Assembly: GCA_024636505.1 (NCBI GenBank)
Contig: JAGXGY010000064.1
Location: 1 to 64,000, forward strand
DNA length: 64,000 nt
Origin: Methylobacter sp.
GTDB taxonomy: Bacteria > Pseudomonadota > Gammaproteobacteria > Methylococcales > Methylomonadaceae
Direction: 5' to 3'
In this document: positions 47,679 to 54,330 of the stretch, piece after piece
Position numbering within the stretch: the stretch's first letter is position 1
Layout of the letters: each line of letters starts with the position of its first letter
Made by a program: the position numbers and the translations under genes
Notes under the pieces: model-generated
Told to the model about the DNA's origin: nothing
Database searches by the model: none
The model's input: only the letters and a program-made list of their open reading frames with translations

Positions 47679-48320
47679 ATGGCAAAACCATTAATACAAA
47701 TGGCATTAGATTCATTGGATTTCGACCAAACAGTCGCACTGGCTACTTTAGTAGCGCCGCATGTCGACATTTTTGAAATCGGAACCCCATGCATCAAACA
47801 CAATGGTGTTAATCTGGTCAGAGAGCTTAGAGCAAGATTTCCAGAAAAATTACTGTTAGTCGATCTTAAAACAATGGACGCCGGCGAGTATGAAGCAACA
47901 CCTTTCTACGCAGCAGGCGCTGATATTTGTACAGTTCTGGGCGTGTCTGGTCTTGCAACTTGTGCAGGCGTTATCAAAGCAGCCAATGCACACGGTGCAG
48001 AAGCTCAAATCGATTTAATTAATGTGGGTGATAAAATAGCTTGTGCAAGAGCAACTGCTGAAGCAGGCGCGCACATTATGGGTATTCATACAGGTCTTGA
48101 CGCTCAAGCAGCCGGTCATACGCCGTTTGCTGATTTGACTGATATCGCATCGTTGGGATTGCCTGTTAGAATTTCAGTAGCGGGCGGCATTAACGCATCA
48201 ACCGTACAAGACGTAGTTAGAGCCGGTGCGAACATTATCGTCGTTGGCGCTGCAATTTACGGCGCAGCTTCACCTGCTGACGCAGCACGTGAAATTCGCG
48301 AATTGGTTGACGCGGTATAA
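47679..48320 (+). CDS. hps: 3-hexulose-6-phosphate synthase
   Basis: The first enzyme of the RuMP cycle, adding formaldehyde to ribulose 5-phosphate to give D-arabino-3-hexulose 6-phosphate. It has 213 residues of the OMP-decarboxylase-like TIM barrel. IQMALDSLDFDQTVALA is at the N-terminus, the metal/catalytic LLVDLKTMDAGEYEA lies near residue 57, and phosphate-binding ISVAGGINAST and IIVVGAAIYGA follow. A GGAG lies 8 bases before the ATG. It opens hps-phi-tkt-X-Y-tal and starts 2 bases before phi. It also detoxifies formaldehyde. Confidence 0.97.
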   Translation: MAKPLIQMALDSLDFDQTVALATLVAPHVDIFEIGTPCIKHNGVNLVRELRARFPEKLLLVDLKTMDAGEYEATPFYAAGADICTVLGVSGLATCAGVIKAANAHGAEAQIDLINVGDKIACARATAEAGAHIMGIHTGLDAQAAGHTPFADLTDIASLGLPVRISVAGGINASTVQDVVRAGANIIVVGAAIYGAASPADAAREIRELVDAV

Positions 48321-48322
48321 TT

Positions 48323-48856
48323 ATGCATCAGCAACTTATCATAGAAAAGATTTCAGGTGTTCTTGAAGCTACAGATGATTCGTATGATGTAAAACTGACC
48401 CAATTGCTTGATAGTGCCAAACGTATATTTATTGCAGGTGCTGGGCGTTCCAAACTCGTCGGTAATTTCTTTGCAATGAGACTGGTTCACGGCGGTTACG
48501 ATGTCAGTGTCGTAGGTGAAATTGTCACGCCAAGCATTAAAAGTGGCGATTTATTGATCATTATTTCCGGATCAGGAGAAACTGAGCAATTAATAGCGTT
48601 CACTAAAAATGCAAAAAAAATAGGTGCAAACATCGTCTTGATCTCTGCAAAAAGTGGCTCAACCATTGGTGATATGGCAGATGCTGTATTTCAAATCGGT
48701 AGTCCTGAGCAGTATGGCAAGGTTTTAGGCATGCCTATGGGAACTGTGTTTGAGCTATCTACCTTGTTATTTCTGGAAGCAACCGTTTCACATATTATCC
48801 ATGAAAAGGGAATTGCTGAAGAAATCATGAGAGAAAGACACGCTAATTTAGAATAG
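48323..48856 (+). CDS. hxlB: 6-phospho-3-hexuloisomerase
   Basis: It converts the HPS product to fructose 6-phosphate. The 177-residue SIS-domain protein has IFIAGAGRSKLVGNFFAMRL near residue 35 and GDLLIIISGSGETEQLI near residue 76. VLGMPMGTVFELSTLLFLEA, with the conserved Glu, lies near residue 134. It starts 2 bases after the hps stop without a clear ribosome site, so translation is probably coupled. Two hairpins separate it from tkt. Confidence 0.96.
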   Translation: MHQQLIIEKISGVLEATDDSYDVKLTQLLDSAKRIFIAGAGRSKLVGNFFAMRLVHGGYDVSVVGEIVTPSIKSGDLLIIISGSGETEQLIAFTKNAKKIGANIVLISAKSGSTIGDMADAVFQIGSPEQYGKVLGMPMGTVFELSTLLFLEATVSHIIHEKGIAEEIMRERHANLE

Positions 48857-48990: not shown

Positions 48991-50976
48991 ATGACTTCGC
49001 GTCGAGAATTAGCGAACGCCATACGCGCTTTGAGCATGGATGCCGTGCAGAAAGCAAACTCTGGGCATCCAGGCGCACCAATGGGCATGGCGGACATTGC
49101 CGAGGTTTTGTGGAATGATCACATGAACCATAATCCGTCCAACCCAAAATGGTCAGATCGCGACCGTTTTGTTCTTTCAAATGGTCACGGATCAATGCTG
49201 ATTTATTCACTATTGCATTTGAGTGGCTATGATTTACCAATGAGTGAATTGGCCTCTTTCCGTCAACTGCATTCAAAATGTGCGGGACATCCAGAATACG
49301 GTTATGCGCCAGGTATTGAAACAACAACCGGACCGTTAGGTCAAGGTATTGCCAATGGGGTTGGCTTTGCAATGGCTGAAAAACTGCTTGCCGATCAATT
49401 TAACCGCCCTGGTCATAAAATCGTTGATCATCATACCTATGTATTCATGGGCGATGGTTGTTTGATGGAAGGCATTTCCCATGAAGCCTGTTCGTTAGCA
49501 GGCACTTGGGGTTTAGGCAACTTAATCGCTTTCTGGGACGATAATGGTATTTCTATCGATGGTCATATTGAAGGCTGGTACACGGATGATACCGTAAAGC
49601 GTTTTGAAGCTTACGGCTGGCATGTTCTGTCAGTAGACGGGCATAATCCTGAAGAAATTAATAAAGCGATTGTCACGGCTAAAGCGATGAACGATATACC
49701 TTCATTAATTTGCTGCAAAACCACTATCGGTTTTGGTTCGCCAAACAAATCAGGCACGCATGAATGTCATGGTGCGGCTTTAGGCGATGCTGAAATCAAC
49801 TTAACTAAAGCCGCTTTAGGTTGGGATTATGAAGCTTTTATTATCCCAGAAAATGTTTATGCGGGTTGGGATGCTAAAGCCAAAGGCGCGAAAGCTGAAG
49901 CTGCATGGGATACTAAATTTGCAGCATATGCTGCAGAGCATCCGGAATTAGCTGCAGAATTCAAGCGCCGTATGGCAGGTGAATTACCGGCTAATTGGGC
50001 GTCTGCAACTGACGCATTGATTGCTGAAACTAACGCAAAAGCAGAAAACCTTGCTACACGTCAATCTTCACAAAAAGTCATTGGCGGATTAGCGCCGACA
50101 TTACCTGAATTTTTAGGTGGTTCTGCGGATTTAACAGGCTCTAACTTGACCAGTTGCAGCAGCTTTAAACATGTCAGTGGTAAAGAGGTGGGCAATTACA
50201 TCTCCTACGGTGTGCGCGAGTTCGGTATGTACGCCATTATGAACGGTATGACCTTACATGGCGGCTTATTGCCTTTCGGCGGAACATTCCACATGTTCTC
50301 TGATTATGCAAAAAGCGCTTTGCGTATGGCCGCGTTAATGAAAATTCGCACCATTGCTGTTTTAACTCATGATTCTATCGGTCAAGGTGAAGACGGTCCG
50401 ACGCATCAGCCGATTGAAAACACGTCTGCTATGCGCTACATTCCAAATATGGATGTTTGGCGTCCTGCCGATACCACAGAAACAGCTGTTTCCTGGATTA
50501 TGGCAGTTGAGCGTACGACCGGACCTACAAGTTTGGTGCTGAGTCGTCAGGGCTTGCCTTTTATTGCGCGTACTGATGCACAAATTGCAGCTATCCGTAA
50601 AGGCGCGTACGTTGTTTCTGAAGCTGCGGGCAATGCTCAGGTTATTCTTATTGCAACCGGTTCGGAAGTTGATTTAGCGATAAAATCACAAGCAGCCTTG
50701 GTAGAAAAAGGTATTCAAGCGCGTGTTGTTTCAATGCCATCAACCAATGTATTTGACCGTCAAGATCAAGCTTATAAAGACAGCGTATTAACACCTGGTG
50801 TCAAACGTGTTGCGATTGAAGCCGGTATTACAGATTTTTGGCGTAAATATGTTGGCTTAGAAGGCGCAGTTGTCGGTATTGATACTTTTGGCGAATCTGC
50901 ACCTGGCGGCGTGTTGATGAAGCACTTCGGCTTTACGGTTGAAAACGTTGTCAAAAACGTAGAAGAAGTACTTTAA
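48991..50976 (+). CDS. tkt: Transketolase
   Basis: A thiamine-diphosphate enzyme that rearranges sugar phosphates in the regeneration half of the RuMP cycle. It has 661 residues, the bacterial norm. Motifs: [20 protein letters not shown] near residue 18, [16 protein letters not shown] near residue 60, and the ThDP GDG...N motif as [14 protein letters not shown] with [11 protein letters not shown] near residues 153-190. [16 protein letters not shown] near residue 462 is in the pyrimidine domain. GTAAGGAGAA provides a strong ribosome site. It follows hps-phi and precedes two repeat-protein genes. Confidence 0.97.
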
Positions 50977-51123: not shown

Positions 51124-51813
51124 GTGAAAATAAATAATTTGACGAATAGTTTAATTGCCACGCTATTATTAGCTAGTCCCATAGTCGGGGCAGAAACTCA
51201 ATATCCAGCGGCAGATTTCGAGCCAAAAGTAGTTTATCAGGATGCTGAATATATTAGCCAAAACAAGCCTGCATCTGCAGCGGTATCAACCAAAGAAGCT
51301 AAGCAGACTAAGGCGGTTGAGGTTGATTCAAAATATCCTGCAGCAGACTTTGAACCAAAGGTTTTATATAAAGACCCAGACTATAAGCCAAGTGCGATTA
51401 CAGAGAGACCGTCGGTATCTGAACGTACTACTACAACAGATGATGCAGCCGTAACTGGAGTGGAAAAAGTGGAAGAAGAATCAATGCTGAGTTATTTGCT
51501 CGGATTAGCAGTTTTTGCTGTAGCTGGGTATGCTTTTTTGAGAAAACGCGAACAAAAAGTAAAGGCCAGTGGTGCGCCAGTTTATTCCGGCCATATCAGT
51601 GGGCTTTCCGGCGTTGCTCGATACATGAGAAAACATAATATGTCTGCGGTAACTGGTGTTGCCAGATATTTAGAAAGCCAGGTTATTTCTGCAAAAGATG
51701 CCGTAGTAGTAAGTGGCGTTGAAAAGTACCTTGAAAAACAGGCTGAATCGGTAAAAGAAAAAGCAGCGCAAGCGGGAACCGGAGTTGAAAAGTACATGCG
51801 CGACCGGGGGTGA
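51124..51813 (+). CDS. Membrane-anchored repeat protein X of the RuMP cluster (unrecognised)
   Basis: A 229-residue protein of unknown family. The GTG at 51124 is chosen because GGGGGA lies 7 bases upstream and a signal peptide follows (NSLIATLLLASPIVGA, cleavage near residue 23). The next 95 residues hold two copies of YPAADFEPKVxYxDxxY, at about residues 27 and 71. One membrane helix follows (MLSYLLGLAVFAVAGYAFL, about 121-139), then RKREQKVK, which by the positive-inside rule places the tail in the cytoplasm. The tail has four GVxxYL/M repeats (about 162, 177, 197, 219). The same repeat fills the next gene, 3 bases downstream. An anchoring role is inference. Confidence 0.8.
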   Translation: MKINNLTNSLIATLLLASPIVGAETQYPAADFEPKVVYQDAEYISQNKPASAAVSTKEAKQTKAVEVDSKYPAADFEPKVLYKDPDYKPSAITERPSVSERTTTTDDAAVTGVEKVEEESMLSYLLGLAVFAVAGYAFLRKREQKVKASGAPVYSGHISGLSGVARYMRKHNMSAVTGVARYLESQVISAKDAVVVSGVEKYLEKQAESVKEKAAQAGTGVEKYMRDRG

Positions 51814-51816
51814 TGC

Positions 51817-52986
51817 ATGGATCAAAATTACCTAGTCAATTTAGTGTCAGGACTTTTTGGATCCAAAAAGGAAGTTGAAACGCAAATCAGTTCCCCTGTA
51901 TATCCTAGTGATTCTAACGGACTGACTGGAGTTGATAGGTATTTAAAAAGCCAGGAAGTTGTGCCAGTACCAAGCGGGGTTGCGAGGTATCTGAGCGGTC
52001 TGGAAGAGTTGTCGGTAATCAATGAGGTTGCTAATACTTTGGAAAATCAGGGCGAAGTATCAGTAGTGGCAGACGAAGTTGACGATTACCTGGAAAAAGA
52101 TCACGAAGAAGTGTTAATAGCTGATGAGAGTGTCGATAATGAAAAAGTCGAGGCATCATTGAGCACTGTTGCCAAATATTTGGAGAAATTGGATCAGCAT
52201 CCTGTAAGCAGTGTTGCTAAATATATGGCAAGACAAGCTATCGTTGCAAAAAAAGCGCCGAAAATTAGTGGTGTTGCTAAGTACATGGCACAGCATGATT
52301 TTTTTACAAAAAAAGCGCCTGTAGTAAGCAGCGTTGCTAAGTATGTGGAAAAACAAGCTAGCTCTCCCGTTATGAGTGGTGTTTCTAAGTATTTAATAAA
52401 GCAGTCCATTTCTGCTAGAAATGCAGTGGCAACAACCGGAGTCGCTAAGTATCTTGAAGATGAGTCCATCGTTGCGAGAAAAGCGGCGGCGGCGACTATA
52501 GTTGCCAAATATTTGGAAGAGCAGCGTATTTTCGCAAAAGAGCAAGAAAAAGAAAAAGAAAAAGAACAGCAGTTGGCTAGAGAACAAGAGATGGAGAGGG
52601 CGGATCAAAGGGCAGTTGCCGCCGCCTCTGAAACCGGAGTGACTCGATATTTGGAAGAGCAGGCGATTCTGGCAAAAGAAAAGCCACCGGTAAGTAGTGT
52701 TTCCAAATATATGGCAAAACAAATTTTATCCAGAAAAGAAGCGCCTATTTTAACCGGTGTAGAAAAGTACATGGCAATGCAGGAACTACACGTAAAAGAA
52801 GCGCCGGTTATAAGTGGCGTTGCAAGGTATATGGAAAAAGAGGCGATGACTGCGAAAATATTGCCTAAAGCAAGCGGAGTCACTAAATATATGCAAAAAC
52901 AGGCTGTACTGCCGACTTCAAGTGGAGTCTCTAAATACGTGAGCAGGCAAGTTATTGCTGCAAGAGCAATGACTGAAAAAGTGTAA
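51817..52986 (+). CDS. Multirepeat protein Y of the RuMP cluster, putative scaffold (unrecognised)
   Basis: A 389-residue soluble protein made almost entirely of a short repeat with consensus SGVxKYLxKQxxxAKxAPxx. Fifteen clear copies start near residues 37, 53, 116, 131, 151, 171, 187, 207, 227, 273, 293, 313, 333, 353 and 369. Two weak ones lie near 70 and 86. Spacing is mostly exactly 20 residues, sometimes 16. Residues 238-266 are a charged coiled-coil-like insert (KEQEKEKEKEQQ). There is no catalytic motif, signal peptide or membrane helix. Lying between tkt and tal and sharing repeats with X, it could be a multivalent binder of RuMP enzymes. No known family was recognised. Confidence 0.8.
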   Translation: MDQNYLVNLVSGLFGSKKEVETQISSPVYPSDSNGLTGVDRYLKSQEVVPVPSGVARYLSGLEELSVINEVANTLENQGEVSVVADEVDDYLEKDHEEVLIADESVDNEKVEASLSTVAKYLEKLDQHPVSSVAKYMARQAIVAKKAPKISGVAKYMAQHDFFTKKAPVVSSVAKYVEKQASSPVMSGVSKYLIKQSISARNAVATTGVAKYLEDESIVARKAAAATIVAKYLEEQRIFAKEQEKEKEKEQQLAREQEMERADQRAVAAASETGVTRYLEEQAILAKEKPPVSSVSKYMAKQILSRKEAPILTGVEKYMAMQELHVKEAPVISGVARYMEKEAMTAKILPKASGVTKYMQKQAVLPTSSGVSKYVSRQVIAARAMTEKV

Positions 52987-53343: not shown

Positions 53344-54330
53344 ATGGCAAAGACTTTACTTGAACAACTGAGAAAAATGACTGTTGTTGTAGCCGACACT
53401 GGTGATATCCAGGCTATTGAAACTTTCACTCCGCATGATGCGACAACTAATCCATCCTTGATTACTGCTGCTGCTCAAATGCCACAATATCAAGGGATTG
53501 TCGATGATACTTTGAAAGGTGCCAGAGAAACCTTAGGTAAAGATGCTTCTGCAGCGCAAGTGGCTACCCTTGCTTTCGAGCGACTAGCTGTTTCTTTCGG
53601 GCATAAGATACTTGAGGTAATTCCGGGCCGTGTTTCTACTGAAGTAGATGCTCGCCTTTCCTTCGATACTGATGCCAGTATCGCTGTAGGTCGTGACTTG
53701 ATTGCCATGTATGAAGCGCAAGGCGTTTCACGCGAACGAGTGCTGATTAAAATTGCAGCGACTTGGGAAGGAATACAGGCGGCTGCAGTTCTTGAAAAAG
53801 AAGGTATTCACTGTAATCTGACCTTATTATTTGGTCTGCATCAGGCAATCGCCTGTGCCGAAAATGGCATTACGCTGATTTCACCTTTTGTTGGCCGTAT
53901 TCTTGATTGGTATAAAAAAGACACTGGTCGTGATTCTTATGCGCCAGCTGAAGATCCTGGTGTGTTGTCTGTTACAGAAATCTATAACTACTACAAAAAA
54001 TTCGACTATAAAACCGAGGTTATGGGAGCGAGCTTCCGTAATATTGGCGAGATTGTTGAATTGGCAGGTTGTGATTTATTGACCATTGCGCCGGCCTTAT
54101 TAGCTGAACTCCAGTCTACAGAAGGTGATCTGGAACGTAAGTTGGATCCGAAAAATGCAATCAATGTATCAATTGAAAAAATGACAATGGACAAAGCAAC
54201 TTTTGATCGTATGCATGCCGAAAATCGAATGGCTTCTGACAAGCTCGCAGAAGGTATCGATGGCTTCACCAAAGCGTTAGAGTCTTTAGAAGGAATTCTT
54301 TCAGCACGATTAGCGGTTTTAGAAGGATAA
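53344..54330 (+). CDS. tal: Transaldolase
   Basis: Transfers a three-carbon dihydroxyacetone unit between sugar phosphates in the RuMP regeneration phase. The 328-residue protein is of the classical TalB type. [20 protein letters not shown] is near residue 27, [12 protein letters not shown] near residue 98, and the Schiff-base lysine in [16 protein letters not shown] near residue 137. [19 protein letters not shown] follows. It closes the cluster after a 357-base gap, and a hairpin follows the stop. Confidence 0.97.

Follow-up and report, generated by a model that had tools for sequence, protein, structure and literature searches.

A multivalent repeat-protein pair encoded with 3-hexulose-6-phosphate synthase in methanotrophs, a candidate scaffold for formaldehyde fixation

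The 64,000-nucleotide stretch of Methylobacter sp. DNA analysed here (contig JAGXGY010000064.1, positions 1 to 64,000; hereafter the window) carries two adjacent genes, X and Y, within its RuMP operon, and their products are a conserved, undescribed multivalent pair tied to 3-hexulose-6-phosphate synthase (HPS) in two distant lineages. An earlier note on this DNA had described Y as a repeat protein and suggested that it gathers enzymes of formaldehyde assimilation. The observation on Y was confirmed, and the scaffold idea, still unproven, survived the tests that were run, with exceptions. We consider it about an even call that X and Y are multivalent scaffolds of the RuMP pathway, with HPS as the likeliest client and with X tying the cluster to the membrane.

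The gene order hps-phi-tkt-X-Y-tal given in the earlier note stands, with hps, phi and tal assigned by the models TIGR03128, TIGR03127 and TIGR00874 and tkt by its translation. The enzyme genes are located as follows.

47679..48320, + strand: hps, 3-hexulose-6-phosphate synthase (TIGR03128, 239.7 bits, cut-off 200)
48323..48856, + strand: phi, 6-phospho-3-hexuloisomerase (TIGR03127, 194.7 bits, cut-off 160)
48991..50976, + strand: tkt, transketolase of 661 aa (identified from the translation alone)
53344..54330, + strand: tal, transaldolase (TIGR00874, 475.6 bits, and NF008965, 609.4 bits, both above their cut-offs)

Three features describe the anatomy of Y.

51817..52986, + strand: Y, repeat protein of 389 aa (ORF translation and motif count)
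51817..51870, + strand: hydrophobic N-terminal segment of Y, MDQNYLVNLVSGLFGSKK
51925..52983, + strand: region of Y with the 15 motif copies

The strict pattern [ST]xVx[KR]Y[LMIV] matches Y 15 times, whereas 2000 shuffles of its residues gave 0.012 matches on average and never more than one, and among the 86 ORFs of at least 100 aa in the window it is confined to X and Y. Two weak copies, INEVANTLENQ and ADEVDDYLEKD, can be made out by eye in the translation, in agreement with the count of about 15 clear and two weak repeats made earlier from the sequence. In 48 relatives of Y the number of copies ranges from 8 to 21, apart from one outlier with 4, and the spacing between them is most often 20 residues. 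Across 675 copies from Y and 181 from X, the valine at position 3 is conserved in 100% and the tyrosine at position 6 in 99–100%, while position 1 is S or T in 99–100% and position 5 is K or R in 97–98%, all of these percentages being somewhat raised because the copies were picked by a filter requiring five of six such features. Comparison with four relatives gave Ka/Ks values of about 0.17–0.21 for Y, falling to 0.08–0.11 in the motif cores versus 0.19–0.28 in the rest, so that Y is under purifying selection and is a real gene in which the motif cores are the most constrained part and the linkers are less constrained.

Y was also said to contain nothing enzymatic; the searches gave no Pfam family above cut-off, no NCBIfam match up to E 1 and nothing credible in the PDB (best E 0.68). 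Homology to the CsoS2 family is likewise absent among the Pfam and NCBIfam matches up to E 1. In 33 of the 48 Y proteins the most hydrophobic stretch lies in the N-terminal part, and it is possible that the segment MDQNYLVNLVSGLFGSKK of the window's Y serves as a weak membrane or self-association element. A repetitive sequence with 10% Lys could also suit a disordered, Lys-rich formaldehyde sink, a storage protein or a stabiliser that has no specific partner, but we regard such a role as very improbable in view of the position-specific conservation of V and Y, the tighter constraint on the motif cores and the presence of the same motif on the probable transmembrane protein X.

X, which was overlooked in the earlier note, lies directly upstream of Y and encodes an apparent signal peptide, one hydrophobic span and four motif copies. 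Its parts and its junction with Y are listed below.

51124..51813, + strand: X, whole gene with a GTG start (ORF translation and alignment)
51202..51369, + strand: predicted periplasmic part of X with two YPAADFEPKV(V/L)Y elements (conserved in the alignment; the side of the membrane is a prediction)
51481..51540, + strand: hydrophobic span of X, a probable TM segment, followed by RKREQKVK (translation and alignment)
51607..51810, + strand: four motif copies of X, SGVARYM, TGVARYL, SGVEKYL and TGVEKYM
51805..51819, + strand: stop of X and start of Y, CGGGGGTGATGCATG, with a Shine-Dalgarno-like run overlapping the stop of X

The start of X at 51124 is favoured over the position chosen by the ORF-caller (51085) because the aligned relatives begin there. 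The signal peptide, the hydrophobic span and its positive flank were seen by eye in an alignment of 29 X proteins, and the motif is present in 2–5 copies per X protein. The window's X, like its Y, matches no Pfam family above cut-off. Since the basic RKREQKVK follows the span, the positive-inside rule would place the C-terminus and the motif copies in the cytosol, and X is probably a single-pass, membrane-anchored protein with a cytosolic motif tail. Y starts 3 nt past the stop of X and is preceded by CGGGGGTGATGC; of 37 X-Y pairs taken from relatives, 28 have a gap of 2 or 3 nt, and all three stop codons are used. From the layout of this junction, X and Y are probably translationally coupled. 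Stop-codon read-through joining X and Y, which are in frame in the window, was considered and set aside: a coupled start is the simpler explanation because gaps and stop codons vary in the relatives and the end of X itself encodes the Shine-Dalgarno-like run.

At E<=1e-3, Y matches 178 of 251 Methylococcales genomes and X matches 215, some of the 178 being in reality matches to the repeats of X, and HPS is above cut-off in 214. Among 46 loci around Y matches (L032-L077), 27 contain the complete order hps-phi-tkt-X-Y-tal and the remainder are truncated at contig or locus ends or have rearranged or repeated operons. The earlier note had proposed asking whether homologues of Y lie beside RuMP genes, and they do: 44 of the 52 Y genes examined lie no more than 5 kb from hps, and for the other eight (L047, L048, L055, L063, L066, L069, L070 and L149) the contig stops on the hps side. 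These 52 genes are what is left of 55 rows once the CheA-like frames L146 and L148 and a different protein, L151, are set aside, and they include two relatives from family f10. For X, hps is within 5 kb in 41 of 45 rows from loci that were not chosen by HPS; nine more rows, from HPS-chosen and hence biased loci, were kept out of this count. When loci were centred on HPS instead (14 from f4-f6 and one from f1), a motif-bearing X was present in 8 of the 15, and two of the seven others encode a fused HPS-PHI, which leaves only 8 of 13 loci centred on an unfused HPS (12 from f4-f6, one from f1). The f4 loci centred on HPS include six with X, which there lies 46–461 nt from hps. Overall, hps is the most constant neighbour, being found near X in f4, beside the relative in f10 and near Y in repeated operons. 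One such repeated operon, L058 of G008, has three tandem hps-phi-tkt copies followed by Y, Y and X, respectively.

The neighbourhood also bears on which enzyme would be bound. The client could be transaldolase or transketolase, in which case the scaffold would serve regeneration of ribulose-5-phosphate and not formaldehyde fixation. In many f1 loci, as in those read from f10, the gene immediately before tal is Y or its relative, and in G018 (L149) the order is tkt-X-X-Y-tal while the only HPS match of that genome is on another contig, so HPS need not be the client. However, L088 has the order X-hps-phi with neither tal nor tkt within the stretch read, and in the rearranged or repeated operons L038, L039, L044 and L058-L060 it is hps or phi that Y adjoins, tal being 4.2–10.4 kb away. 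We therefore find a scaffold devoted to ribulose-5-phosphate regeneration quite unlikely, with transaldolase nonetheless a real alternative to HPS as the client.

The second lineage came from a class scan of 369 genomes, in which HPS was found outside the order in just three, all of family f10. These three genomes are Methylophilaceae-like, have tandem hps genes and are 1.7–2.6 Mb in size; PF02461 (pmoA) is absent from all three, and the X profile matched an ORF between their two hps genes. The three f10 relatives found beside hps were used for an alignment (A4) with which 57 f10 genomes were searched, a search that is sensitive to the hps-adjacent kind because it was seeded with such relatives. 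A small soluble relative (frame of 60–233 aa, with about 3–7 motif copies) was counted manually in 46 of the 57 genomes. It is present in 46 of the 48 genomes with an HPS match and in none of the nine without, a contrast inflated by physical linkage and incomplete assemblies. The order hps-Y-tal was read in 29 of 30 f10 loci, and in the remaining one (L175), which a contig end truncates, tal and hps are on the open side. The linkage of a motif protein to hps is hence seen in two distant lineages. A match of one f10 relative (L143) to DAPIT/ATP_synth_reg (PF14960) covers 20 residues with 20.6 bits, below the cut-off of 25, and was taken as chance.

In f10 the motif occurs in larger proteins as well, within long frames of 733–2065 aa in 34 of the 57 genomes (manual count). 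Three of these large proteins carry 2–6 motif copies in a linker: L147:5601-11207 (- strand) is a whole CheA-like kinase with Hpt, HATPase, CheW and receiver domains, L148:1-2549 (- strand) is a fragment with an Hpt domain in which the motif takes the form QTSVERYIQQQ, and L146:5745-11852 (- strand) is a further large motif-bearing protein. The scaffold reading of the earlier note is thus upheld in part: the linkage to hps extends to the distant RuMP operons of f10, but the motif in a CheA-like kinase is unexplained by a metabolon alone, which does not account for all occurrences. These copies, up to six in a linker of L147 or L148, would suit a motif that binds a shared regulatory or positioning hub and not a RuMP enzyme, so that a sensor kinase and the RuMP pathway met at one site in the cell. 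Against this, a query with Y at E<=10 matches only X and Y in the methanotroph's own genome, so no motif-bearing kinase is seen there, and we judge a shared hub unlikely, if worth keeping in view. A further motif protein, L151:9007-9846, consists of 279 aa and bears the motif four times, with a CKRKA segment that includes a Cys at its C-terminus; it has no family match, and no RuMP gene is present in the stretch read.

Several comparisons were made with genomes that have only part of this system. A fused HPS-PHI (HxlAB, NF041755) is another, covalent means of keeping HPS and PHI together, and none of the 20 loci encoding it contains X, Y or a motif ORF within the flanks covered (at most about 9 kb on either side, and shorter where a contig ends); each of these 20 genomes does match X at another place. 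This pattern fits a role of X and Y in holding separate enzymes together, and it fits different regulation too. PF02461 was tested in 34 genomes only, and nine of them are positive for it without an HPS match. A motif protein is missing from eight of these nine: six (G006, G007, G013, G014, G016 and G236) gave no X match, and in two (G009 and G207) the only matches are YPA-type proteins that lack the repeats. In the ninth, G246, a motif-bearing X adjoins a fragment of hps where the contig ends, so this genome does have hps.

These comparisons also bear on whether the repeats bind membranes, or shape or stack intracytoplasmic membranes, with the RuMP linkage reflecting co-expression only. X is probably membrane-anchored, the majority of Y proteins have the hydrophobic N-terminal stretch mentioned above, and most of the hosts found belong to one methanotroph order. 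Yet motif proteins are also present in f10, whose three tested genomes lack PF02461, and they are absent from eight of the nine PF02461-positive genomes tested that have no HPS match. The helical (amphipathic) moments of the window's repeats are modest (0.15–0.45), and together with the near-invariant tyrosine this favours protein recognition over plain lipid binding. A membrane-binding or membrane-shaping function is accordingly improbable.

The linkage to HPS also has exceptions. Seven f4 genomes (G025, G033, G052, G061, G081, G093 and G099) have HPS and gave no X match in the profile search, and G045 has HPS and an X without motifs. In f6, where seven genomes were searched with the profile, the motif was found only in G018, and six have X-like matches that end before the repeats. 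A search of 398 genomes of the phylum with the X profile gave the window's own genome as the only convincing match, plus three weak matches in the TM region. A true HPS is present in the 5-Mb genome G764 of another family, f188 (L213), with no motif within the 3.6 kb read; this genome is apparently among the 398, where it has no X match. Among 72,556 plasmid records, neither Y (E<=1e-3) nor HPS (E<=1e-40) was found. A sequence patch of HPS or PHI that tracks X and Y was looked for, and the idea was dropped as uninformative, since the residues separating X/Y-linked from fused enzymes amount to two columns each, namely columns 25 and 212 of HPS, and column 22 and the start Met of PHI. The corresponding comparison of Tal residues has two negatives only.

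The YPA elements of X occur in the absence of the motif in several other settings. In the Methylomonas-like group g4, the loci L056, L061, L062 and L063 have a short X of 85–94 aa before Y, with only a signal peptide and YPA elements and without motifs; one of the short-X genomes, G188, has a full X about 60 kb off (L104), in a second operon of the order hps-phi-tkt-X-tal. The X-like proteins of f6 (L152, L153, L158, L161 and L162) have the signal peptide, the YPA elements and the hydrophobic span, but where X has its repeats they have a basic C-terminal tail of the R-A-N-K-T-K-R type. In L152, L153, L158 and L161, the four loci whose neighbours were read, their genes adjoin a gene that looks mutS-like by eye, and one of these four is the second X of G018. 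In the window's own genome (contig C31), L085:9629-9871 encodes a secreted protein of 80 aa in which a single Cys lies between two YPAAxFQPKVIY elements; its gene comes after that of a taurine/sulfonate-type ABC transporter. A relative of 110 aa in L156 is likewise preceded by a similar transporter, and this arrangement was seen in both G000 and G207. G207 also encodes a secreted SRPBCC (Polyketide_cyc2) protein (L155:9097-9903, - strand) with two YPAANFEP elements at its end, which we take to resemble MxaD, a methanol-oxidation factor. Inspection by eye of the stretches read around the genes for the small YPAA proteins showed no recognisable methanol dehydrogenase.

These bacteria produce formaldehyde in the periplasm and fix it in the cytosol, and it has long been asked how they escape its toxic effects when the flux is high. 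We infer the following mechanism for X and Y, including their topology, binding, client, clustering and benefit. Each [ST]-G-V-x-[KR]-Y-[LM] copy, probably an N-capped short helix, would act as a short linear motif that docks on a RuMP enzyme, the likeliest client being HPS and the next transaldolase. Y would gather many copies of the enzyme into a cluster or condensate, which the cytosolic tail of X would hold at the inner or intracytoplasmic membrane, where formaldehyde from periplasmic methanol oxidation would arrive. The benefit would be a short residence of toxic formaldehyde and channelling from HPS to PHI, and methylotrophs of the Methylophilaceae type would use the small soluble version instead. 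In a more far-reaching version, which we think rather unlikely, X would form the backbone of a transmembrane metabolon leading from methanol to sugar: its YPAADFxPKVxY elements would bind the periplasmic methanol-oxidising machinery and its cytosolic motifs the RuMP cluster of Y, so that formaldehyde would be caught while crossing the membrane.

The carboxysomal CsoS2 and the pyrenoid EPYC1 are multivalent linkers of Rubisco. Y resembles them in that a single short conserved motif recurs many times, with variable linkers in between, and X and Y are encoded beside the carbon-fixing enzymes that they would gather if the client is as proposed. Unlike CsoS2 and EPYC1, X and Y have another motif, belong to another pathway and include a probably membrane-spanning member. 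The HPS of Methylococcus capsulatus was reportedly particulate in an older report. In the same pathway, Price et al. 2016 are reported to have engineered enzyme assemblies for methanol use and Orita et al. 2007 an artificial HPS-PHI fusion (both cited in PMC8879981); these man-made constructs were meant to improve methanol use, and X and Y would be a natural counterpart.

In the open PMC literature searched, nothing was found on X or Y. The duplicated RuMP locus of Methylococcus has been described, and no X- or Y-like protein is mentioned there in the portions consulted (PMC517821, PMC8527097). Another paper states that it is not known how intracytoplasmic membranes are formed and suggests that methanol dehydrogenase may be recruited by arrays of pMMO (PMC9445010). 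The role of X and Y is directly testable because the genes are small and related strains can be manipulated. If the scaffold reading is true, X and Y would be, as far as the literature searched shows, the first natural proteins put forward as a scaffold for fixing formaldehyde, which would parallel the scaffolds of Rubisco and could be transferred into synthetic methylotrophs.
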